Source of the DNA: Erysipelotrichaceae bacterium
GTDB taxonomy: Bacteria > Bacillota_I > Bacilli_A > ML615J-28 > CAG-313
DNA: 64,000 bases
Assembly: GCA_015059015.1 (NCBI GenBank)
Contig: SVBG01000003.1
Span: 62,001 to 126,000, forward strand
Direction of reading: 5' to 3'
Shown here piece by piece: positions 9,654 to 62,795 of this stretch (its first letter is position 1; every line of letters starts with the position of its first letter). The position numbers and the translations under genes are program-made. The notes under the pieces are model-generated. The model did not search any database. It was not told the origin of the DNA and saw only the letters and a program-made list of their open reading frames with translations.

Positions 9654-9664
9654 ATAAAATCAAT

Positions 9665-9881
9665 GATAGAAGATAAGTAGATATATTGAATTATTATAGA
9701 GAAAAGCTGGTTGGTGAAAAGCTAATAATTGATATATTGAAGCTACTTCTTTAGATGGGACTAATCCTCTCCGCTTGTAGCGTTAAAACAATAACTAAGC
9801 GTATAAATTTTAATTTATAAACTAGGATGGTACCGCGAATTTTAGTTCGTTCCTATGATTTTTTAGGAGCGAACTTTTTTT
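9665..9881 (+). promoter_or_regulatory. T-box riboswitch, alanine (GCU specifier), controlling alaS
   Basis: The leader has the tRNA-sensing T-box layout. The stem I apical region carries GCTGGTTGGTGAAAAGC (about 9705-9722). The specifier loop has GAA-GCT-A with GCT (alanine) at 9742-9744. The T-box sequence AGGATGGTACCGCG lies at 9824-9837. A terminator hairpin (GTTCGTTCCTA/TAGGAGCGAAC plus T-run) follows at 9845-9881. Uncharged tRNA-Ala should pair with the specifier and the T-box bulge, favouring the antiterminator and transcription of alaS. The codon matches the downstream gene. Confidence 0.95.
9845..9881 (+). terminator. T-box-controlled terminator upstream of alaS
   Basis: Stem GTTCGTTCCTA (9845-9855) / TAGGAGCGAAC (9864-9874) followed by seven T. 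Its 5' arm lies just after the T-box sequence, as expected for a mutually exclusive antiterminator. Confidence 0.92.
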
Positions 9882-9908
9882 ATGAATGATTAATTGAAAG
9901 GATTATAT

Positions 9909-13933: not shown

Positions 13934-13962
13934 AAAACTCAACAGGTTCTCTGTTGAGTTTT
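13934..13962. terminator. Bidirectional terminator
   Basis: AAAACTCAACAG...CTGTTGAGTTTT with A-run on one side and T-run on the other. It serves the small membrane protein gene on + and the end of mrp on -. Confidence 0.88.
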
Positions 13963-14962
13963 AATTACTTTTATATATAATAAATTCAGTAATATCATCG
14001 TAAATTTTACCATTTTCTTCATCAATTTCATATAAATCTTGATGATATTTAGGACGATTAATTGGAAGTTCTGCAATTAATTCAGTATCTAAAGTATTTG
14101 ATACCTTATATCCACCACCTTTTCCAAAGATGTATTCTTTTTCTTTATTTACAGGGTTGATGTAATATGACATATTTTCGATAACACCTAAAATTTCATG
14201 ACCAAGAGTTTTAACGGCTAAGCCCGCTTTTACTGCAACGTGAGATGCAGATACGTTTGGTGTCGTAACGATAATCATTTTTGTTTGTGGAACGATGTTT
14301 TTAACATCTAATATAATGTCACCTGTTCCAGGTGGAAAATCAATAATTACATACTCAGTATCGGAATGCCATTTTATATCATAGAAGAAGTGTGATAACA
14401 TACTGTTTAACATGCTTCCACGCCAAATTACAGGTTGACCGGGATCTGTGAAAAATTCTGTAGAAATAAGTTCTATTCCATCTTTTTCGATTGGAATAAT
14501 TTTTTTATCGTCATCATAATTTGGATTTTGGTGTGGAATTTCTAGAACCGTTGGTAAACTTGAACCATAAATATCTGCATCAATCATACCTACACGAATA
14601 CCTTTTTTTGATAAACGATATGCAATATTAGCCGCAACACTACTTTTTCCTACTCCACCTTTTCCACTAATAATACCAATAAATTTTATGTCTTTTTTTG
14701 TAATACTATTGTAGATTTTTGATTCTTCTAATTGAAGACGAATTCCAGTATAACCACAATCTATTTTTACTACTCTTGCAATTTGACGACGAATTGTTTT
14801 TTCTCCATCTCCACCAAGTTTTCCAATTGATACAATAAGTGTCACGACATCTTTTTCATCATCATAACCAATATGTTTAATACCATATGTTTCTTTTAAA
14901 GTTTTATTAACTGTTGGATCGATTATTTGTTCTAACAGTTGTTTTAATTCATCCATTGTCAT
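13961..14962 (-). CDS. mrp: Mrp/NBP35-family P-loop ATPase (ApbC/SalA-like)
   Basis: A 333-residue Mrp-family ATPase, linked to iron-sulfur cluster carriage. The N-terminal 85 residues form the MIP18/DUF59-like domain (IIDPTVNKTL). The deviant Walker A GKGGVGKSS is at 100-108, followed by MIDADIYGSSLP and DFPPGTGD. In the stretch ENMSYYINPVNKEKEYIFGKGGG the CxxC normally bridging an Fe-S cluster is missing, so cluster carriage in the usual way is doubtful. It follows tmcAL by three bases and is probably cotranscribed with it. Confidence 0.9.
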   Translation of the reverse strand: MTMDELKQLLEQIIDPTVNKTLKETYGIKHIGYDDEKDVVTLIVSIGKLGGDGEKTIRRQIARVVKIDCGYTGIRLQLEESKIYNSITKKDIKFIGIISGKGGVGKSSVAANIAYRLSKKGIRVGMIDADIYGSSLPTVLEIPHQNPNYDDDKKIIPIEKDGIELISTEFFTDPGQPVIWRGSMLNSMLSHFFYDIKWHSDTEYVIIDFPPGTGDIILDVKNIVPQTKMIIVTTPNVSASHVAVKAGLAVKTLGHEILGVIENMSYYINPVNKEKEYIFGKGGGYKVSNTLDTELIAELPINRPKYHQDLYEIDEENGKIYDDITEFIIYKSN

Positions 14963-14965
14963 AAA

Positions 14966-16114
14966 TTAGTCCTTTCTAATTGGTAGTTGATATTCTTTTA
15001 TAATTAATTCATTGTTATTAGTGATTAATGAATATAGTTTAGTAGCTAGAAGTTCTATTTCTAATATATTATAACACATTTGGTCGCTATTTATTTCTTT
15101 AACACTTGAAAAAATTAGTTTTTTTACTTCTTTATTTAAAGTATTAATATATTTTAGACCTATATTATCAGTACCAAGTATTCTTAGATAAATTTTATTA
15201 TGATAAAAATTATTTATGTTTAGTAGCATATAAAGAATTGTTCTATTAATTCTTGATTTAGAATAGCGTTTATTGCATAGATTATTAATAAATTCATCAT
15301 AGGAAGTGGTATGCTTATAATTATTAATAATGTAATTGATTATGCCTTCAGTGTTTATAGTACTACTGTAATTTGTAGTGATTAAACATGCATAATTAAC
15401 TAGTGTCATTAATTTATTATACGCATAATTTAAATCAATAAGATTTTCATCAAATGGCAAGTATTGTGAATAATCGAGATTTTTAATTCTTGCGTTTCTA
15501 ATAGCTTTAGCGGATACAATATTCGAGTCTAAATTTTCATCATCATAACTATTAGTTCTCTTAATTAATGATATTTGGATATTTGGATAATTATATTTTA
15601 TTGTTTTGTAATATTGATAAGCAAGTGTAAAGTTAGGTTTACTGAATAATTCAATTAGAGAAGAATTAATATTTAATTCTTTTAATGTATTTTCAAATGT
15701 TTGTTTATAGGAATTATGTTTTTTTAAGTTTTCTTTAAATAAATTAATAAATTGAGTAGTGTTTTCTAAATCGTAAAAAGTTTTGAAATTATCAATGTTA
15801 TCATTTTCACAGCCACAAATTATGTGGTTTACACCAATTGAATTTAAAATAGTTAAAGCATTTGATGCGAAATAGTCACAACTTTGTGTCGATAAGATAA
15901 ACGGAAATTCCAAAACTAAATTGACACCTGCTTTTAGAAGCGCAGAAGTTTTGTCAAACTTATTAATAACGGATACTTCACCACGCATCGTAAAAGAAGT
16001 AGAAGTAACCGCAATAAGCACATCTGGATTATATTTGTTTTTTATCTCATCAATAAAATACTTATGTCCGTTATGAAGTGGATTAGTCTCAATGATTATT
16101 CCAATAATATTCAT
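14966..16114 (-). CDS. tmcAL: tRNA(Met) cytidine acetate ligase TmcAL (YlbM family)
   Basis: TmcAL makes N4-acetylcytidine at the wobble base of elongator tRNA-Met from acetate and ATP. The start chosen is the ATG at 16114, after GAGGG, giving 382 residues (usual about 390-400); an upstream in-frame ATG at 16168 has no ribosome binding site. The nucleotidyltransferase signature GIIIETNPLHNGHKY is at residues 4-18, with SFTMRGEVSVINKFDK next and NIVSAKAIRNARI near 200. First gene of a two-gene minus-strand unit with mrp, divergent from the pilus region. Confidence 0.92.
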   Translation of the reverse strand: MNIIGIIIETNPLHNGHKYFIDEIKNKYNPDVLIAVTSTSFTMRGEVSVINKFDKTSALLKAGVNLVLEFPFILSTQSCDYFASNALTILNSIGVNHIICGCENDNIDNFKTFYDLENTTQFINLFKENLKKHNSYKQTFENTLKELNINSSLIELFSKPNFTLAYQYYKTIKYNYPNIQISLIKRTNSYDDENLDSNIVSAKAIRNARIKNLDYSQYLPFDENLIDLNYAYNKLMTLVNYACLITTNYSSTINTEGIINYIINNYKHTTSYDEFINNLCNKRYSKSRINRTILYMLLNINNFYHNKIYLRILGTDNIGLKYINTLNKEVKKLIFSSVKEINSDQMCYNILEIELLATKLYSLITNNNELIIKEYQLPIRKD

Positions 16115-16176
16115 ATAATTACCCTCTTTACTATTTAATATTATACCAAAATTCGTGTGTTTTTGCAAATAAAGAA

Positions 16177-21565: not shown

Positions 21566-21604
21566 AAATAAGAGAAATTCATTTTTTATGAATTTCTCTT
21601 ATTT
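21566..21604. terminator. Bidirectional terminator between the pilus operon and the AroC-like gene
   Basis: AAATAAGAGAAATTCAT (21566-21582) / ATGAATTTCTCTTATTT (21588-21604), a 17-bp stem; its right arm includes the stop region of the minus-strand gene. Confidence 0.92.
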
Positions 21605-22603
21605 CATTCTTATCATTTCATATATCGAAATAGCAGTTAGGGCTTCTACTTGGAAAATATTTTTATGCATTGTAAAATATTCTTGTTTAATTGGTTCAAT
21701 ATATGTATTCTCTAATGTTTTATAATTAATACTTATACTATTTTTTTGATAAATTAGTGGTGGGATAAAATGAGTGTTAAAATAAACAAAGTCTCCAGTG
21801 GTTATTCCTTGTTCAACACCATAATAAATATTTGAATCATATAATAATTTGTCATCTACAAAGGAAATATTTTTTATAGGTTGAATTAATTCGTTGTTTA
21901 TTTTATAAACGTTAGAAAATTCTAATGATTTTAATGAAGGAATTAGATATAATATTTTTGAAATACTGCTTTCAAATAAATTAAAATATGGATATCCTAA
22001 ACCTTTTGGTAAATTATAAATAATAGTTTGAAGACTTCCGCTTATGGATTTTTTTTCATTAATTGTTTTGTTAAGTAATTTTTGCATCATAATTTTAGCT
22101 CTAGAATCAACAATTGGTAATTTGTCATTTTTAAATTTGTATAAATCAATAAGTAATTTATTATAATCATTTACTGTGTCATAGATGTTTCCAATTGAAT
22201 TTATATGAGTAAAAATAGTAATTTTATATTTGTTAAGAAGAATTTCTTTAATAATTAATCCAACAATACAAATAGCAATAACATTATACTTTAATATCAT
22301 ATTGTTTGTAATTGTTGTATTATATTGGTCCAAATAATATAAATGATTGTTTTCTGGATTTATAATTTCATGAGATGTTTCTTGATTAATTAGGGTTAAG
22401 ATTATTAAAAAATTTTTATTGTTTTTTCGTTCCTGAAAATTAATAAATTCAATTTTGATATTTGGATATATTTCATAAATGATTTTTTTAATATTTTCTA
22501 AATCAATATAAAAATCAATTTTTAAGTTTTCTATATTAACTATTATTTTATTATTTTCATACCTAGATAATGTAATACTTAAAAAGGAAAATAAGTTTTG
22601 CAT
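21599..22603 (-). CDS. Degenerate chorismate synthase homolog (probable pseudoenzyme)
   Basis: 334 residues, GAGGA before the ATG. The fold signature of chorismate synthase (AroC) runs along its length. Residues 4-13 (LFSFLSITLS) sit where AroC begins. Residues 186-207 keep the SxxG...PKGLGYPYF element (AroC: DSIGG...P-GLGEPVF). Residues 221-229 (IPSLKSLEF) match IPAVKGVEF. Residues 265-270 (QGITTG) match GGISNG, and the C-terminal VEALTAISIYEM matches PVVEAMAALVL. The residues that bind FMN and EPSP are gone: no FGESHG, RPGHAD, GRSSARET or GRHDP. The frame is open at near-normal length, so it is probably expressed as a non-catalytic protein. No shikimate-pathway gene is nearby. Confidence 0.75.
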   Translation of the reverse strand: MQNLFSFLSITLSRYENNKIIVNIENLKIDFYIDLENIKKIIYEIYPNIKIEFINFQERKNNKNFLIILTLINQETSHEIINPENNHLYYLDQYNTTITNNMILKYNVIAICIVGLIIKEILLNKYKITIFTHINSIGNIYDTVNDYNKLLIDLYKFKNDKLPIVDSRAKIMMQKLLNKTINEKKSISGSLQTIIYNLPKGLGYPYFNLFESSISKILYLIPSLKSLEFSNVYKINNELIQPIKNISFVDDKLLYDSNIYYGVEQGITTGDFVYFNTHFIPPLIYQKNSISINYKTLENTYIEPIKQEYFTMHKNIFQVEALTAISIYEMIRMK

Positions 22604-27231: not shown

Positions 27232-27602
27232 AAATATTTAATACGGAAAGATAACTGAGCACATTTTATGTGTTAGGAAAGTCCATACTAGCACAATCTG
27301 CGATGATTGTAGTGTTTGCGCTTAACGAAAAAATAAGTTAAGGAACTAATTTATTAGTTACGGCGGATGAAACCTAAAGCTTAATGCCATGGTGTAGTCC
27401 TGAAAGTGCCACAGAGACGAGTTTCTTTTGGAAACAAAAGAGTGGAACGGGTAAACCCCACAAGCTAGCAACCCAAATTTTGGTAGGGGCATGATTTTAG
27501 GGAGAAATGAATCCACTAAAATTACACTTGTTTATAGTGAGATAAATGGTTATCCCTTCTTATAGAAGGACAGAATATGGCTTACAAAGTATTTAAATAT
27601 TT
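27232..27602 (+). ncRNA. rnpB: RNase P RNA, Bacillus class B
   Basis: The catalytic RNA of tRNA 5' maturation. P1 is formed by AAATATTTAATAC at the 5' end with GTATTTAAATATTT at 27589-27602. Universally conserved stretches: AGGAAAGTCC at 27275-27284; GAAAGTGCCACAGAGACGAG around 27402-27421; GGTAAACCCC near 27450; AAGCTAGCAACCCAAATTTTGGTAGGGGC (type-B form, in two parts around 27461-27490); and the 3' GGACAGAATATGGCTTAC near 27568-27585. Layout and order match the B-type RNA. A terminator follows at once. It occupies the 470-bp gap between pnp and engB. Confidence 0.96.
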
Positions 27603-36606: not shown

Positions 36607-36647
36607 AAAAAAAGAAGTATAGAACTTTTAGGTTTTATACTTCTTTT
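36607..36647 (-). terminator. Terminator for the minus-strand pair ending at 36646
   Basis: On the minus strand AAAAGAAGTATA / TATACTTCTTTT is followed by a T-run (plus-strand A-run 36607-36613); the stem begins at the stop codon of the gene at 36646-37002. Confidence 0.82.
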
Positions 36648-37002
36648 AAATTATATAGTCTTCATTACATAGATGACATTGATAATGTTCATCGTGACAA
36701 AGTTCAATTTTCTTATCACTGTATTTTGAAACAACTTTATTGATATATTTTTCCATGCATGGATCAAAATATATTAAATATGTATCATCAGTTATGCGGT
36801 AAACAACTCTTCCTCTTGGGTAAAAGTCGAAATCTACTTTATACTTTTCTTCATAATATTTCATCCATATTTGAAAGTGGCTATAAGGATAGTTATAAAA
36901 ATCTCCATATTTTTCACTGTGTTCGAGATTAGTATAGTGAAATAATAGTTTTCCATTTACACAAAAGAATAAACTTGGACCAATTTGATTATTTTGATTC
37001 AT
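36646..37002 (-). CDS. Hypothetical protein with C-terminal Cys/His cluster
   Basis: 118 residues from the ATG at 37002 (GAGGT five bases upstream); a longer in-frame start at 37059 would lie deep in the neighbour. Overlaps the upstream gene by 14 bases, so coupled. The C-terminus has LCHDEHYQCHLC, a possible metal-binding cluster, and the core has several Tyr/Trp-rich strands. No known family recognised. Confidence 0.6.
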   Translation of the reverse strand: MNQNNQIGPSLFFCVNGKLLFHYTNLEHSEKYGDFYNYPYSHFQIWMKYYEEKYKVDFDFYPRGRVVYRITDDTYLIYFDPCMEKYINKVVSKYSDKKIELCHDEHYQCHLCNEDYII

Positions 37003-37513
37003 ATGGTACCTCAAATATTTTAGTATTTCCAAGTCCGATAAGTCTTGTTCCGTATACATCAGTATAAGGTGTTACAAATACAATTTCACATTCATTGATG
37101 TATTTTACAATCTTTTTTGGATTTGGTGTTGCGATAACAAGTTTTATTTCGTTATCTTGTGGAGTATAATTCATGAAGTTTTCAATATCTTTTAAATATT
37201 TTTTATATGGTTGAGCTTTACCTGGGGTATTACCTGCACCATATTTAATTTCCCATGTAACTTTATTATTAATTTGAATTTCTGCGTATTCTGGGATTTT
37301 AATTATTTTAACAATAAAAGTTATTTCTGAATTTTTGATGATTTGATCATAACATTTATTTTCAATATTTGTTATTTCGTAACCTAATGTTTTAATTTTG
37401 TTATAAAATGATTCTTCAATACTTGATTTAATATTAGCATTTTTTGTAAATACTAAAATTAATACAACTGCTGTTATAACTGCTAGTACAATAAAAATAA
37501 TAATATCATCCAT
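36989..37513 (-). CDS. Membrane-anchored hypothetical protein
   Basis: 174 residues with one N-terminal TM helix (about 3-24) and a soluble domain. Segments VTWEIKYGAGNTPGKAQPYKKYL and IKLVIATPNPKKIVKYI alternate strand and helix, faintly like a restriction-endonuclease-type or Rossmann-like core; a WEIKYG motif is suggestive of a D/ExK site but this is weak. The first gene of a two-gene unit with the Cys/His-cluster protein. Function unknown. Confidence 0.6.
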   Translation of the reverse strand: MDDIIIFIVLAVITAVVLILVFTKNANIKSSIEESFYNKIKTLGYEITNIENKCYDQIIKNSEITFIVKIIKIPEYAEIQINNKVTWEIKYGAGNTPGKAQPYKKYLKDIENFMNYTPQDNEIKLVIATPNPKKIVKYINECEIVFVTPYTDVYGTRLIGLGNTKIFEVPYESK

Positions 37514-41298: not shown

Positions 41299-42195
41299 AT
41301 GGAAGAATTAATTTTAGAATATCGTAATTATTTAGTATCTGAAAAAATGCGTAGTAGTAATACGGTTGATTCATATGTTAGTGATTTACAAAACTATGTT
41401 TATTATTTAACTAATAATTTGAATATTGATGATGTTAAATTAATTGAAGCAGAACATATAAAAAAATATTTAAGTTATATGAAAAGTTTAGGTTATACTG
41501 CTGCATCAATGTCTAGAGCACTTAGTAGTATTAAAAGTTTTCATAAGTATTTACTGATTGAAGAAATTTGTGTTTCAAATCCAGCTGCGGCAATTACTAG
41601 TCCTAAAAAGCCTAAAAAACTTCCTGCAGTTTTAAGCGTTGAGGAAGTAATGTTGCTTTTAGACAGTTTAAATAACGATACACCAATAAATTCAAGAAAC
41701 CAAGTAATGGTAGAATTAATTTATGCGTGTGGTCTACGTGTGTCTGAACTTGTTGATTTAAAACTTGGTGATCTTCGTATGACTTCGAAAATGATTTCTA
41801 CTCGTGGAAAAGGCTCTAAAGAAAGACTTATTCCTGTAAATGATTATTGTTTAAAACTTTTAAGAAATTATATTATTAATGATCGTCCTAAACTTTGTAA
41901 GGCGGTTGATCCTGGATTTGTCTTTTTAAATGCACAAGGTGGACATTATTCTCGTCAAAGTTTCTTTTTGTTTTTAAAAGATAAATGCAAAGAAGTAGGT
42001 ATTACAAAAGAGATCTCGCCGCATACGCTTCGTCATTCTTTTGCAACTCATCTATTAGAAGCAGGAACTGATCTTAGAATTATTCAAGAATTACTTGGAC
42101 ATGAGTCAATTAGTACAACACAAATTTATACACATATAAATAATAAAACAATTAAAAATATTTATGATAAAGCTCATCCTAGAGGAGGTAAATAA
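41299..42195 (+). CDS. xerD: Tyrosine site-specific recombinase XerD
   Basis: 298 residues. N-terminal SAM-like core-binding domain (TVDSYVSDLQNYVYYL near residues 20-35). The catalytic domain has Arg in YACGLRVSEL (about 147), Lys in GKGSKERLIPV (about 173), HTLRHSFATHLL (HxxR near 247), LGHESISTTQIYTH (His and Tyr nucleophile near 278). XerC/XerD resolve chromosome dimers at dif; a dif candidate lies 2.7 kb downstream. xerD-deoB is the Bacillus order. AGGAGA precedes the ATG. Confidence 0.95.
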   Translation: MEELILEYRNYLVSEKMRSSNTVDSYVSDLQNYVYYLTNNLNIDDVKLIEAEHIKKYLSYMKSLGYTAASMSRALSSIKSFHKYLLIEEICVSNPAAAITSPKKPKKLPAVLSVEEVMLLLDSLNNDTPINSRNQVMVELIYACGLRVSELVDLKLGDLRMTSKMISTRGKGSKERLIPVNDYCLKLLRNYIINDRPKLCKAVDPGFVFLNAQGGHYSRQSFFLFLKDKCKEVGITKEISPHTLRHSFATHLLEAGTDLRIIQELLGHESISTTQIYTHINNKTIKNIYDKAHPRGGK

Positions 42196-44294: not shown

Positions 44295-44328
44295 ATAGTA
44301 TTCACAAATTATTAATCTTAAATTTTTG

Positions 44329-44356
44329 CACTCTATTAATTTAGAGTGTTTTTTTT
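44329..44356 (+). terminator. Terminator of the last + strand gene before the terminus
   Basis: CACTCTA (44329-44335) / TAGAGTG (44342-44348) followed by eight T. Confidence 0.9.
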
Positions 44357-44365
44357 ATTACTTAT

Positions 44366-44770
44366 ATTCTATAAGAAGATGAAATTTAATATATACATTA
44401 AAGTCCTATAAAAAAGATATCCAAGGCTCTCTTTTGAGAAGTTGAAATAAAAATGGATTAATAATTTATCATTAGAGTTCTAAAATCAAAGTTTTCCACA
44501 TGCCAATTTATAAAATGTTCTAATGTTAAAAATAATTTTTATCCACGCACAGTTTTAAATAAAGCGACTTAATACGAATATTTGTCGTTCTATTTGCTTT
44601 GTGTGAGAGGATGAAATAAAATAAGACGAATAATTAATAATTCAAGTTTTAAAATATGGGTTAGATTAAAATTAGTAGAACATAATTTATAGCGGATGAA
44701 TAAATATTTATTAGATATTTATTCATCCGTTTTTTTACATATTTGAAACTAATTTGTAAGAAGGTGAAAT
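44366..44770 (-). repeat. Dispersed repeat: four degenerate copies left of dif
   Basis: Copies at 44366-44385, 44423-44448, 44597-44617 and 44751-44770. On the minus strand each starts ATTTCA and keeps CTTCT/CCTCT and TTAYA/TCACA elements, but all have lost the AGAAGGG core seen right of dif. Copy 3 also retains a decayed form of the hairpin sequence (GACGAATAATTA). Confidence 0.6.
44693..44736 (+). terminator. Orphan terminator-like hairpin in the terminus region
   Basis: CGGATGAATAAATA (44693-44706) / TATTTATTCATCCG (44716-44729), 14 bp perfect stem, then seven T. No gene or recognised RNA precedes it on the + strand. Its GATGAATAAATAT resembles the hairpin of the dispersed repeat, so it may be a relative of it rather than a functional gene end. 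Confidence 0.75.
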
Positions 44771-44931
44771 ATGATAAACAAGTAGTATTAGTTTTCAACA
44801 TCTGGTGATAAAATTAAAGAATAATCAACAAGTTATACACAGCAGGAAAAGAGCAGAGTAAAACTTATTTTAATAATTATTAACGTTCAAATTAATATAA
44901 TTTTATCGTGGTTTTACTTATCTTTTTTATT

Positions 44932-44959
44932 GGTTAACATAATATATATTATAGGAAGT
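44932..44959. other. dif: Candidate dif site (XerC/XerD chromosome dimer resolution)
   Basis: 28 bp in dif layout: one 11-bp arm GGTTAACATAA, a 6-bp centre TATATA, and the other arm TTATAGGAAGT. Read on the minus strand the arms are ACTTCCTATAA and TTATGTTAACC; the Firmicutes consensus as I know it from S. aureus and B. subtilis has ACTTCCTATAA/ACTTCCTAGAA and TTATGTAAACT. 26 of 28 positions match the staphylococcal form. It lies in a gene-free region at the convergent polarity switch, 2.7 kb from xerD. Confidence 0.88.
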
Positions 44960-45204
44960 AAAAGGCAAATGTATTTGTAGATATAATTATTTCTCTAATC
45001 GTTATTTTATGACATAATGGTTCGTTCTTTTGCCATATAATCACATATCAGCTGTTATTAAACTATGTCATTTTATTTATGATGAGTTAGTTTTTTTGGT
45101 TCTTTTTTCGACAAAAAACCTCTCCTTTTTCAACACCACTTTTCGTTACATATTATACTTTTGAATAATTATCCTCATCTTATCCACTACTGGAAAATAA
45201 AAAA

Positions 45205-45229
45205 AGCCCTCCTGTGAGGACTTGAAAAT
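45205..45229 (-). repeat. Dispersed repeat, copy 5
   Basis: Minus strand ATTTTCAAGTCC-TCACAGGAGGGCT. First copy right of dif; the AGGAGGG core is present, followed on + by an AT-rich stretch without the clean hairpin. Confidence 0.65.
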
Positions 45230-45343
45230 ATATTTTATTAATAACTAATCATTTAATTTGTTTAAATTTAGTTTATTAACACCAATTAATTATATTATTC
45301 TACAATTATAAGATCATCTAATATTTATTAATAATAATGTCGT

Positions 45344-45370
45344 AATAACCCTTCTGTGAGCAGTTGAATT
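45344..45370 (-). repeat. Dispersed repeat, copy 6
   Basis: Minus strand AATTCAACTGC-TCACAGAAGGGTTATT, a near-consensus box; the adjoining AATTATTTATTT...AATAATT is a weak hairpin. Confidence 0.65.
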
Positions 45371-45490
45371 ATTTATTTGTGAATAATTAATCATTTGATT
45401 GGTTTAAAACAGTCTAATTTAAGTTATTATTCAAAAACTTAAATTAGTACTATTTCATCAGGTAATAATTATATTTAAGTTAGTATGTTT

Positions 45491-45518
45491 TATCTTCTCT
45501 TCTGTGAACGTTTGAGTT
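45491..45518 (-). repeat. Dispersed repeat, copy 7
   Basis: Minus strand AACTCAAACG-TTCACAGAAGAGAAGATA; core changed to AGAAGAG; no clean hairpin. Confidence 0.55.
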
Positions 45519-45597
45519 AATTTTTTATGAATTATCATTGGGTTACTTATAAATTATTTTAATTATAAATATAAACTTATAATTTATGTAAAACAAA

Positions 45598-45630
45598 AAA
45601 ACCTCAAAAATGGTCTTTTTTTGAGGTTTT
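45598..45630. terminator. Bidirectional terminator at the end of the minus-strand operon
   Basis: AAAACCTCAAAAA (45598-45610) / TTTTTGAGGTTTT (45618-45630), about 90 bp after the PHP phosphatase stop. Confidence 0.85.
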
Positions 45631-45718
45631 ACTTTATATTATTAATTATTAATAAATTCTTTTAAAGTTTAAAAAACACTTGTTTTTAAGCTTTATTTCT
45701 TATAATAAAAGTACTTTA

Positions 45719-46540
45719 TTAAAGTTTATTTACAATGTTTAAACCTAGTTTTTCAGCTAGTTCATAAGCTTTAATAGTAGATTCATCTGATAAATGATCT
45801 GGATCATGAGCATCATCATTGATCATTAATTTAACTTTAGTATCTGCACATAGCTTAAAGAACTCAATATTAGGGTATGCCCAATTATGTGCATCTTTTA
45901 TCTTTCTATCACCACTTGGAACTGTTATATAACGATGTGATTTTTCACAGTTTCTAATACCATTTGCATTAATCTCTAATATAACATCATTTTTTATTGC
46001 GGCATCAATAATGCGTTTTGATGCATTTATGCATTCTTCATCCCAAAATGGGTAACCCCAGTTAAATACATCAGGATGGGCAAAAATTTTAAAATAACCT
46101 GTGTTTAGAGCTTCTATTACTGTATCAGCATAAATCTTAATCATTTCATCAGACAGTTGTGAATAAACAGATAAATATTTATTATTATATTTAAAGTAAT
46201 GTTGTCCAAGAATCATATAATCTAATTTTTTACTTAATAGAGGATAAAATTCTTTAAATTCATCAAAATATTCAATCTCTACAGCACTATGAATGTTAAT
46301 AATATCTTTATATTTTGTTTTAGCTGCTTCTAATTCAGGTAAATAGATATTAATAAAGTCATCCATATTCATTCTTTTTGAATAAATTAACTTTTCTAAC
46401 TCTTGTGTAAAAGGACAGTGATCGGAAATACCAATATCTGTATATCCAAGTTCTATAGCACGGTCTACATAGTCTTCGATTGTTCCTCTTGCATGTTTAC
46501 AAAGGTATGTATGAGTATGATAATTAGTCGTTATTTTCAT
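45719..46540 (-). CDS. PHP-family phosphatase, HisJ/HisK-type histidinol-phosphatase
   Basis: 273 residues, like B. subtilis HisJ. PHP metal motifs: YHTHTYLCKHARGT (HxH near 8-10), SDHCPF near 40, a Glu in VEIEYFDEF near 98, ILGQHYFK near 130, FAHPDVFN near 172 and NDDAHDPDHL near 240. Known members dephosphorylate histidinol phosphate, but no histidine genes are in the window, so another phosphoester substrate is possible. Last gene of the rluB-PAP2-Fic-like-PHP operon; its start overlaps the Fic-like gene by 17 bases. Confidence 0.88.
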   Translation of the reverse strand: MKITTNYHTHTYLCKHARGTIEDYVDRAIELGYTDIGISDHCPFTQELEKLIYSKRMNMDDFINIYLPELEAAKTKYKDIINIHSAVEIEYFDEFKEFYPLLSKKLDYMILGQHYFKYNNKYLSVYSQLSDEMIKIYADTVIEALNTGYFKIFAHPDVFNWGYPFWDEECINASKRIIDAAIKNDVILEINANGIRNCEKSHRYITVPSGDRKIKDAHNWAYPNIEFFKLCADTKVKLMINDDAHDPDHLSDESTIKAYELAEKLGLNIVNKL

Positions 46541-47576
46541 CTTTAGACACTCCTACAGCGTATTCTTTTTTCTTTGGGTCATATAATTTCTTCCATTTTG
46601 CACTACGCCCTGTACCAAGTGGAATAATATAATTCATTTCATGTAGTTTTTTAAGAACTCTCATAATTGTTGATGGACTAACACCTGGATTTAGTCTTGC
46701 TACATCTTCTTTTGAAAATAAATCAGGAAGATTATTAAGAATAGAGTCTTGTATTACATCACTTTTTTGAGCAGTTTTGCTTAATTTTTTATTTTCTATT
46801 TTTTCAAGTTCTAAAACAGCATTATTAATTAATTTTAAGGTAAATTTAACAAAATCATTAAAGAAAATAATCCCTTGATCGTAATTAATGCTACCTCTAC
46901 TTATTAAATTAAATGCTTCTTCTTTATTATTTATGAACATTTTGAAGAAACTAACAAAATTAAAACTAACAATACCACATTTTAATAATAAATAATAATA
47001 AGTAAACATAAGTGCAAGCTCATTATATTCAGAATATGGTTTAATATTGTACATTTCCATAATTAAAATTGAAGATAAAATAATCGGTTCATGTAATTTT
47101 TGATCAATAGCTTTATCATAATCATCTAAAATTGTATTAAATTTATATCGAACGCTCTTATTTTTAGCACCTTGAATAGTAAAATCATTACTATTTATTT
47201 TAATAGTTGGTCCATAAATACGTTTTAATAAGTCTAAAATATCAATACTATTAATAGGATGTTTATCAATAAAAGCATTTGTACGAATTGATTTAATAAT
47301 TCTTTTAATTGCAGCAACCATTTTTTCTTCTTTAGTTTTAGGTGTATAATCTTTAGTAATTATTAGTCTTTGTCTTTCAAAACTAACCTTGATACCTAAA
47401 TATTTAACAATTTCAAAAGTATCTTCTTCTAATGAATTGTTATAATCTACTAAATAGTCATCTTTATAGATTTTACTATACGTTTCAGATTTACCAATTG
47501 TTTTGTATAAATCTAATAATTCTAAAAATAAATCACCTGGAATTTGGTAATTTTTAAGATAATCAAAATTATTCAT
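46524..47576 (-). CDS. Fic-fold protein with degenerate active site and C-terminal winged helix
   Basis: 350 residues. The middle has the Fic helical core: HEPIILSSILIMEMYNIKP (162-180) where Fic proteins have a helix ending in IHPF, then YSEYNELALMFTYYYLL in place of xDGNGRTGRLL, and NKEEAFNLISR...FFNDFVKFTL as the later helices. The HPFxxGNGR motif is thus IKPYSEYNEL (178-187): catalytic His and the phosphate-binding Gly/Arg are lost, so AMP transfer is not expected. The C-terminus (about 285-332) is a winged helix (SPSTIMRVLKKLHEMNYIIPLGTGRSAKW, in parts), as in Fic-wHTH regulators. Likely a DNA-binding or sensing pseudoenzyme. Confidence 0.7.
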   Translation of the reverse strand: MNNFDYLKNYQIPGDLFLELLDLYKTIGKSETYSKIYKDDYLVDYNNSLEEDTFEIVKYLGIKVSFERQRLIITKDYTPKTKEEKMVAAIKRIIKSIRTNAFIDKHPINSIDILDLLKRIYGPTIKINSNDFTIQGAKNKSVRYKFNTILDDYDKAIDQKLHEPIILSSILIMEMYNIKPYSEYNELALMFTYYYLLLKCGIVSFNFVSFFKMFINNKEEAFNLISRGSINYDQGIIFFNDFVKFTLKLINNAVLELEKIENKKLSKTAQKSDVIQDSILNNLPDLFSKEDVARLNPGVSPSTIMRVLKKLHEMNYIIPLGTGRSAKWKKLYDPKKKEYAVGVSKDENND

Positions 47577-49346: not shown

Positions 49347-49406
49347 AATAACCCTTCTGTAAGAGGATGAAACAAAAAAAGATGAGTAAATATCTACTCA
49401 TCTTCT
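49347..49406 (-). repeat. Dispersed repeat, copy 8, with terminator hairpin
   Basis: Hairpin AAGATGAGTA (49379-49388) / TACTCATCTT (49395-49404) with a T-run on the minus strand, then GTTTCATCCTC-TTACAGAAGGGTTATT. It ends the membrane protein gene at 49427 and lies upstream of rluB. Complete copy. Confidence 0.85.
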
Positions 49407-49426
49407 AAAAACTTATCAAACAAATA

Positions 49427-50035
49427 CTAATTTATTTTTAATCTAACTAATAATCCACAATTAAATATATATCCAATTATACAAACAATGACAGTTAGAT
49501 AATGCATCTTAATATTATACTCATTACTATTAACTGCTATTAATGTATTAGTTAAAGTCAAAATAGAAATAACTACATCCATTAAGTTAATAGTTCTTAA
49601 TTCTTTTATCAAAATATTAGTTTCACTTCTTCGTATAAATTGTTCTATAACGATAATTGATTTAATAGTAACGTATAATGCAACACAAATAGATGGAATT
49701 AAAGTCATTTCTATGATTCTTTTATCATTGATTAATAATATAATTGGAAAAATCAAAAATATATTTAGAATAATTAATAAAACTTTAATTATTTTAAACT
49801 TTACTAAATAATTGTTGTGGTTTTTATAAATAAAAATTAATAACAAACCTTTAATTAATACTAACAATAAATAGTAAATACTAATAGTTTCATGCCACAT
49901 AGAGTGTTTAATTATACCTAATATTCTATTAAATATAGAAAATAATAATGTAAGAATTGAAGATATTATATAAATTATTTTCTTATTAGTATTAATAATT
50001 GTCTTTAATTTAATTAAATAATTATTTAGTTTCAT
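49427..50035 (-). CDS. Six-TM membrane protein, TetR-linked
   Basis: 202 residues, about six hydrophobic segments (about 20-40, 50-70, 82-102, 112-132, 150-167, 178-196). No family recognised. It starts 14 bases inside the TetR gene and is coupled to it; TetR regulators commonly control the membrane protein next to them. Terminator in repeat copy 8. Confidence 0.7.
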   Translation of the reverse strand: MKLNNYLIKLKTIINTNKKIIYIISSILTLLFSIFNRILGIIKHSMWHETISIYYLLLVLIKGLLLIFIYKNHNNYLVKFKIIKVLLIILNIFLIFPIILLINDKRIIEMTLIPSICVALYVTIKSIIVIEQFIRRSETNILIKELRTINLMDVVISILTLTNTLIAVNSNEYNIKMHYLTVIVCIIGYIFNCGLLVRLKIN

Positions 50036-51513: not shown

Positions 51514-51576
51514 AATAATTCCTCTTCTATAAGAGGATGAAACAAAAAAATATGAGTAAATATCTACTTATCTTCT
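51514..51576 (-). repeat. Dispersed repeat, copy 9, with terminator hairpin
   Basis: Minus strand AGAAGATAAGTAGATATTTA-CTCATATTTTTTTG, then TTTCATCCTCT-TATAGAAGAGG. Here the box itself forms a perfect 6-bp hairpin (CCTCTT/AAGAGG). It ends the 382-residue gene at 51564. Confidence 0.8.
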
Positions 51577-52712
51577 ATAAAGGGGAAATCTTTAATGATT
51601 TCTCTATTATTAATTTTCTTTGCAATAGTAATAGTATTAGAAGTTATTTCAAGTGTTGATAATATAATAGCAGTATTTGAAGATATAATTTCTTCTTTTC
51701 TTAATTCTTTAATTATTTTAATCATCTTATTTACAAAGTATTCTGATTCGTCAATTAAATCATCTATATTACAATTATTGTTAAATAATAAATCTTCAAA
51801 TGTTTGAATATGATTTTGTTCTTTAAATATTGCTTCTTCAGTATCTTCATAATAAGCTATGTTCCATTTTTCTTCGCAAGTCTTTTTCTCAGTAGTATAT
51901 TGCATTGTTAAATCTGTATTTTCACAATTTATCCAAATAACACTTATATCTAAACTTTTCCATTTATTTAAAATTTCAATCATATTTTCTTTAATGATTT
52001 TAAATACAGGAACTTTTTTAGGAAGAGGTATTTCTATTTTATTGCCATTGTCTAGTTTAAATCTTATGTGATGATAACCTTTTATATTATTTTCTTCATC
52101 TATATAATATAAAATATTATCTTTAATTTTCATATTAGTAATATCTTTTTTCTCATTTATAAATTTAAACTCTTTTGTTGGTTTAGTATATTTAATATAA
52201 GTAATAAAAGTTTCATCATCAAGATATTTAAAAATATGTTCTTCATAAATATTATTTTCGATAGGATTATACATAAATAGTACAGGAATTCCAATATGTT
52301 TTATGATTCTATTTTCTTTATCATAATATGATTTTGAAAGAGAATAGAAACCATTATTTAAGCTATAACAAATAAATTCTAAGATTTTATCTTCATAAAA
52401 ATAAAAGTTTAAATATTTTATCTTCCCATCGAGATATTTTTCAGATAAAATAATCTTATTATTTTCATCAAAAAAATATTTATAATTAAATCCTTTATCA
52501 ATATTTTTAATTTCTCTACCAATAGATTGATTAGTACACATTATTTCTGTTACATATGAAGGTTCATATAAACCTGCCATAAATCCCAATCCTTTACTAT
52601 ACTTAAGTATATTTGTATTTTTAATGATTTTATCATAATAAGTTATAAAATCGAAATCTTGATATTTTTGATAAAGTTCATATAGTTCTTTTTCAATGTT
52701 GTTAATATACAT
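51564..52712 (-). CDS. Hypothetical protein, 382 aa
   Basis: Soluble, acidic, Tyr/Asn/Lys-rich; no signal peptide or TM. Several repeating strand pairs of the form KIKYLNFYFYEDKIL / SKSYYDKENRIIKHI suggest a beta-repeat sheet of a toxin-immunity or RHS-like kind, but no family can be named. It begins after a short GGGAATCTCC leader (on + numbering 52705-52725) and is 13 bp downstream of the anchored protein gene, so they form a unit. Confidence 0.6.
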   Translation of the reverse strand: MYINNIEKELYELYQKYQDFDFITYYDKIIKNTNILKYSKGLGFMAGLYEPSYVTEIMCTNQSIGREIKNIDKGFNYKYFFDENNKIILSEKYLDGKIKYLNFYFYEDKILEFICYSLNNGFYSLSKSYYDKENRIIKHIGIPVLFMYNPIENNIYEEHIFKYLDDETFITYIKYTKPTKEFKFINEKKDITNMKIKDNILYYIDEENNIKGYHHIRFKLDNGNKIEIPLPKKVPVFKIIKENMIEILNKWKSLDISVIWINCENTDLTMQYTTEKKTCEEKWNIAYYEDTEEAIFKEQNHIQTFEDLLFNNNCNIDDLIDESEYFVNKMIKIIKELRKEEIISSNTAIILSTLEITSNTITIAKKINNREIIKDFPFIEDK

Positions 52713-53667: not shown

Positions 53668-53728
53668 TTAGCCCTCCTATAAACGGTTAAAATAAAAAAG
53701 ATGAGTAAATATTCACTCATCTTCTATA
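53668..53728 (-). repeat. Dispersed repeat, copy 10, with terminator hairpin
   Basis: Hairpin AAGATGAGT (53698-53706) / ACTCATCTT (53715-53723), T-run on minus, then ATTTTAACCGTT-TATAGGAGGGCTA. It ends the gene at 53768. Confidence 0.82.
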
Positions 53729-53767
53729 ACTAAAGATTATATAAGTGTTTATTATATTTAAATAAAT

Positions 53768-58888: not shown

Positions 58889-59047
58889 ATTTATGACCTC
58901 CTCAAATAAGATATTGAAAAATTATCATATCAACACCTATTAAACAATTTAATTATTTAATTGTGACATAAAAGTTTTTTTAATTTTACTTAGTTAGTAT
59001 ATCACAAAATTTATTATTATTAGAAAAATAAATATAATTTTTATAAT

Positions 59048-59108
59048 AACCCTTCTCTAGGCGCTTGAAATAAAAAAAGATGAGTAAATATCAACTCATC
59101 TTCTTAAA
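59048..59108 (-). repeat. Dispersed repeat, copy 11, with terminator hairpin
   Basis: Hairpin AAGATGAGT (59077-59085) / ACTCATCTT (59094-59102), T-run on minus, then ATTTCAAGCGCC-TAGAGAAGGGTTAT; contains the exact octamer GAGAAGGG. It ends the DUF4143 ATPase gene. Confidence 0.85.
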
Positions 59109-59122
59109 TAAATAAACTTAAT

Positions 59123-62723: not shown

Positions 62724-62724
62724 A

Positions 62725-62795
62725 AACCCTCCTCAAATCGTTTGAAATAAAAAAGACGAATAAATATCCACTCAACTTCTTAGAATTCGTCTTTT
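62725..62795 (-). repeat. Dispersed repeat, copy 12, with a longer terminator stem, between dacB and spmA
   Basis: Minus strand GGATATTTATTCGTCTTTTTTA, then TTTCAAACGATTTGAGGAGGGT. A longer stem AAAGACGAAT (plus 62752-62761) pairs with ATTCGTCTTTT (62784-62794), reaching into the dacB stop. The box's AGGAGGG serves as the spmA ribosome binding site. Confidence 0.8.

Follow-up and report, generated by a model that had tools for sequence, protein, structure and literature searches.

XerC and XerD recombine two dif copies once a chromosome dimer has arrived at the division septum, a reaction controlled by the FtsK translocase. The locus described here shares with dif/XerCD/FtsK systems of the B. 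subtilis and E. coli type a 28-bp two-arm site present in single copy at the GC-skew switch, and XerC, XerD and FtsK are encoded, with xerD close to the site. The site itself shows no difference that matters; in this family it is accompanied by partly conserved flanking motifs. This part of the finding, dif and the terminus, is ordinary. The other part is a family of repeats around dif. As in the MatP/matS system of E. coli and Vibrio, these are short, dispersed, non-coding sites that are confined to the terminus and conserved across species while the positions of the copies shift. Unlike matS, they measure 60–75 bp and are crowded into about 30 kb around dif, and their motif (alignment A1) is longer than the 13-bp matS motif and looks unlike it. 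With the fork traps Tus/ter and RTP/ter they have in common that a genome carries several terminus sites; they differ in that RTP is absent here and that the orientation of the repeats is not mirrored around dif in most genomes. We know of no sequence link between the repeats and the Tus/ter or RTP/ter sites.

The window, i.e., the whole stretch of 64,000 nucleotides that was analyzed, corresponds to bases 62001–126000 of contig C14 (254,343 bp) in a genome of 2,012,712 bp assembled in 14 contigs. The features of its terminus region are as follows:

41299..42195, plus strand, xerD (TIGR02225, 338.5 bits against a cut-off of 329.6)
44295..45718, no strand, ORF-free terminus region of 1424 bp with dif, repeat copies and the GC-skew maximum at 45099
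44901..44919, plus strand, box TTTTATCGTGGTTTTACTT, conserved in part among 10 family members, on the XerD-arm side of dif
44932..44959, minus strand, dif site ACTTCCTATAATATATATTATGTTAACC, single copy in the genome, same site in relatives
44932..44959, minus strand, parts of dif: ACTTCCTATAA, XerC-side arm; TATATA, centre; TTATGTTAACC, XerD-side arm
45059..45094, no strand, imperfect inverted repeat TAAACTATGTCAT..ATGATGAGTTAGTTT, with a counterpart at roughly the same place in relatives

The 28-bp element consists of two 11-bp arms and a 6-bp centre, which are conserved in relatives. We found a single match to it in the whole 2.01-Mb genome with up to 3 mismatches allowed, so that the search for a second copy proposed in the earlier note returned none, and 0 matches are expected in the shuffled window. 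Being the sole copy, located at the skew switch and conserved in relatives, the element is dif, as that note had read it. A dif of 28 bp was detected in 33 of 60 relatives, in one copy per genome, except for one genome where an additional, weaker match lies at the end of a contig. The commonest related form (ending in AACT) differs from the present site only in the last base, and two related genomes carry the identical sequence. The first 27 bases are matched exactly in 96 public records, mostly of Bacilli, Izemoplasma and Mollicutes-like bins. No dif was found in the assemblies of G003, G005 and G014; since these also lack the xerD orthologue (only Xer proteins of 37–39% identity are present), an assembly gap is likely. 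As dif modules, and elements that target dif, are known from elsewhere (PMC6449649, PMC10132070), the 28-mer could in principle be a copy carried by a Xer-exploiting element rather than the chromosomal dif. This is extremely improbable: it is contradicted by the uniqueness of the site, placed at the skew switch, and by the hemW-xerD-deoB neighborhood, which is kept in many relatives. As a separate observation, some contigs end 98–99 bp from a dif-like site (G009:C39:99-126, G039:C191:99-126, L085:100-126), a pattern like that of an assembly graph branching at dif; these ends could represent dif-carrying or dif-integrated elements.

GC skew was computed on approximately 570 kb of contigs. On the 254-kb C14, the cumulative skew reaches its maximum at window position 45099, 140–167 bp from dif, and all 10-kb blocks are positive before the switch block and negative after it. 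The extremum had been anticipated at about 44.9 kb and was met 140 bp beyond dif. The opposite extremum, a minimum at C8:94988, is located near a dnaA domain at C8:98887, and in three complete genomes of the class the distance from dif to dnaA amounts to 0.48, 0.47 and 0.50 of the circle. With the skew peak at dif and the 28-mer unique, the anchoring of the window at the terminus holds, and none of the contrary outcomes named in the earlier note (a skew switch elsewhere, several copies of the site, oriC close by) was encountered. Skew, uniqueness and gene polarity show that dif marks the replication terminus. The claimed switch from plus- to minus-strand genes at dif is correct in the main, but its wording that all genes conform is too strong, as minus-strand ORFs exist left of dif (13961-16168, 21599-22603 and 36646-37513). 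Likewise, the 1.4-kb region described as gene-free is indeed ORF-free between 44295 and 45718, but it is not empty and holds at least four of the repeat copies. Two structured RNAs were recognized elsewhere in the window above the Rfam gathering score: a T-box leader at 9654-9857, upstream of an ORF at 9894, and class B RNase P RNA at 27248-27585.

As for the recombination proteins, the ORF at 41299-42195 encodes XerD and ends 2.7 kb from dif, in agreement with the distance given previously. A XerC-like protein is encoded on C13 behind a TrmFO-like ORF; XerC is its best model, 12 bits under the curated cut-off. FtsK is encoded on C12, with the FtsK domain over cut-off. Judging from these parts, dimer resolution would take place at the 28-mer by XerC and XerD under FtsK. 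Of the KOPS/SRS octamers, GAGAAGGG occurs once and GGGNAGGG not at all in about 570 kb, and the frequent, dif-skewed pattern was not observed. An SRS/KOPS reading of the CCCTTCTC arm was rejected, GAGAAGGG being virtually absent from the genome. The box at 44901-44919 and the inverted repeat at 45059-45094 may act as accessory sites, either for Xer recombination or for the terminus; the latter lies about 100–150 bp right of dif and is partly conserved in ten family members. A third tyrosine recombinase of 277 aa (G000:C1:32545-33012, L013) scores below all Xer cut-offs and adjoins an ORF resembling a mobile-element replication-initiation protein, where GC skew is locally reversed.

The ORF-free 1.4 kb around dif contains at least four copies of a repeat unit of approximately 60–75 bp with the core GAATAATTATCNATTC. 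Copies in and beyond the window are:

44424..44494, plus strand, terminus repeat copy, dif -473
44596..44662, plus strand, terminus repeat copy, dif -303
44687..44742, plus strand, weak terminus-repeat match (E 0.0015), also a terminator-like hairpin with T-run
45203..45272, plus strand, terminus repeat copy, dif +305
45345..45416, plus strand, terminus repeat copy, dif +448, best match to the relatives-only model (E 2e-10)
45497..45554, plus strand, decayed terminus repeat copy
49348..49412, plus strand, terminus repeat copy, separated by 15 bp from the stop codon of ORF 49427-50035 (minus strand)
51520..51585, plus strand, terminus repeat copy overlapping the end of ORF 51564-52712
53669..53738, plus strand, terminus repeat copy
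59046..59111, plus strand, terminus repeat copy, best match in the whole genome (E 2.6e-15)
62724..62793, plus strand, terminus repeat copy
Contig C14 127620, 133925 and 135206, three repeat copies outside the window

Five direct-repeat units were first detected in the 1.4 kb, the best pair scoring 28.1 against a shuffle maximum of 19.3 (n = 60). With a model of these five units, additional, weaker copies emerged as a cluster to the right of dif on C14; in relatives, too, dif is flanked by similar sequences. The final model, based on sequence only, was built from 29 copies (alignment A1). Its 12 best matches in the whole genome (E 2.6e-15 to 1e-9) are all located at C14 106426-135274, spanning -0.5 to +28 kb of dif or 1.4% of the genome, and the next-best match genome-wide has an E of 6e-4. 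When the model was restricted to copies from relatives, the 12 copies here were its 12 best matches, and nothing better than E 4.9 was obtained on reversed sequence. Thus, a terminus domain of about 30 kb carries a dispersed repeat whose strong copies are absent from the rest of the genome. The surroundings of dif are mostly gene-free, which by itself favors the discovery of non-coding repeats there. We hold with high confidence, as a joint statement, that the chromosomal dif is located at 44932-44959 and that the repeats are real and terminus-confined; what the repeats do lies outside this judgment.

The position of the copies relative to genes brings transcription termination into consideration. 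Relative to the stop codon of the neighboring gene, right-arm copies range from 21 bp inside to about 40 bp beyond, those between codirectional genes adjoin the stop codon, and several copies here form a minus-strand hairpin (GATGAGTA..TACTCATC) followed by T-runs. The repeats could accordingly be intrinsic terminators or 3'-end elements of terminus genes, without a chromosome function. We regard this as unlikely, since the dif-flanking copies have no adjoining gene, the copies at +27 and +28 kb are reversed relative to the same gene direction, no common RNA structure was found by RNAalifold in the 29 copies, and ordinary terminators are not expected to be terminus-confined. No Rfam family was found at the repeats.

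In relatives of the family, nearly all strong repeat copies are situated in the terminus region, either on the contig that carries dif or on others with terminus synteny. Strong repeats are borne by contigs syntenic with C14 96–144 kb (G010:C10, G014:C92 and C98, G008:C26, G001:C81) and by G003:C74, which is collinear with C14 128–153 kb. G007 has its strong copies on two contigs: C64, which includes dif, and C49, whose genes we could not place. The sole strong match without terminus synteny is G012:C23:16315-16371 (E 7.8e-7); translocation of a terminus fragment or misbinning of the contig could account for it. A comparison of this genome (G000) with that of the close species G003 did not reveal the repeats to be clearly more conserved than other intergenic DNA, the two being too close to discriminate. 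For a second family, we scanned 15 dif loci with a model whose training copies all came from the first family, taking matches with E up to 1. We counted 20 matches in the 40 kb within 1.5 kb of dif vs. 6 in the 153 kb further out, with near-dif repeats in 10 of 15 loci (binomial P 1.5e-9), and 0 matches in the reversed sequence of these loci. In the second-family version, TCTGAGAAGATTA...GGATAATTATCNATT, both arms are altered and the dyad symmetry is kept in the best copies, which are few. In turn, 17 sampled genomes from other families of the class gave no match at E up to 1e-5.

Several features would fit a functionless accumulation near the terminus, either of selfish elements in decay (hairpins or MITE-like) or of local duplications. 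A few copies are near-perfect palindromes of 65–70 nt (duplex z -8 to -12; G006:C6:46170, G008:C23:37706, G003:C74:49150), whereas most are not (median z -1.2) and have decayed right arms. Moreover, copies within one genome share variants and are partly alike, and G007 carries a short tandem array, hence local duplication contributes to the copies. As a full account of the repeats, such an origin appears rather unlikely: neutral copies would hardly stay recognizable and tied to the terminus in two families that share 30–40% identity in the Fic-fold proteins of this locus (see below), and there is no scatter through the genome. A viral or mobile origin was rejected, as one pattern hit two viral contigs, neither of which matches the repeat model, and we attribute these hits to chance.

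Being multi-copy, terminus-confined and mostly non-palindromic, the repeats might alternatively act as polar replication fork barriers, like the Ter sites of Tus or RTP; in the relative G009, strong copies on the left of dif are even oriented oppositely to those on the right. In known fork traps, ter sites point toward dif from both sides (PMC6549158). Here, the left copies and the right copies up to +21 kb are all on the plus strand, and in most genomes the orientation does not change from one side of dif to the other, contrary to what a mirrored trap would require. With RTP also absent from the genome (PF02334; the B. subtilis control was detected), a fork barrier seems very unlikely.

The reading that we tentatively favor, at not quite even likelihood, is that the repeats are candidate sites of a protein that would mark or organize the terminus, resembling matS in role and not in sequence. 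No earlier description of these terminus repeats was found in the open-licence literature; the terminus-confined family is well supported and, as far as our literature search reached, undescribed. It also illustrates that a "gene-free" dif region can be packed with conserved sites.

A possible binder of the repeats is encoded 1.6 kb from dif:

46524..47576, minus strand, Fic-fold protein without catalytic motif and with a C-terminal winged helix, conserved neighbor of dif

No Pfam or NCBIfam model recognizes this protein above its cut-off. When 15 homologs are combined into a profile, this matches the Fic-family protein PDB 8uqu with E 5e-29 over nearly the full length, winged helix included, and the AlphaFold2 model (pLDDT 79.8) retrieves 8uqu as the top Foldseek hit (E 1.1e-9, TM 0.82 by target). 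The Fido fold and C-terminal winged helix are thus common to it and to this Fic/Fido protein of Bordetella bronchiseptica. The catalytic motif of the Fic/Fido proteins is HPFx[D/E]GN[G/K]R (PMC2686095). Unlike 8uqu, the dif-adjacent family does not possess it (here KPYSEYNEL), and its His and Arg are absent in the aligned homologs. The winged helix is strongly conserved: in the homolog alignment, 17 of 29 invariant columns fall into the 58-residue winged-helix region (residues 271-328). We regard the protein as the best candidate for a terminus-binding protein and for the repeat binder, a speculative assignment that is rather unlikely to be correct.

Of the 60 relatives, 39 encode Fic-fold homologs. 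Among 23 dif loci of other families, all selected because they contain dif, 13 have the homolog no more than 7 kb from dif. Yet, in the complete genome G053 the gene is 175 kb from dif. We therefore rejected proximity as proof of linkage to dif, given this exception and the regional synteny which explains part of the nearness. The protein is also encoded in families where no repeats were seen; for this reason, and because of the partial explanation by synteny, its link with the repeats is put forward as a hypothesis. In its fullest form, this would mean that two families of a Mollicutes-like order possess a terminus-organizing system of their own, in which a dead Fic-fold winged-helix protein encoded beside dif binds an array of 60–75-bp sites within about 30 kb and marks the terminus for segregation or Xer recombination, as an independently arisen counterpart of MatP/matS. 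We consider this complete scenario rather doubtful. Repeats confined to the terminus over two Mollicutes-like families, with a candidate DNA-binding pseudo-enzyme often encoded beside dif, nevertheless make a concrete, testable candidate.

In the second family and in the groups f4 and f8, homologs of the gene at G000:C14:186019-188490 are neighbors of dif and the Fic-fold gene; in the present genome that gene is about 79 kb from dif. Since these homologs adjoin dif elsewhere, the right arm has been rearranged in this family, with the Fic-fold gene retaining its place at dif. A further group of the order has the end of the Fic-fold frame at a nearly constant distance of 316–372 bp from dif (loci L056, L069, L070, L079, L080, L094, L106, L114, L121 and L138).
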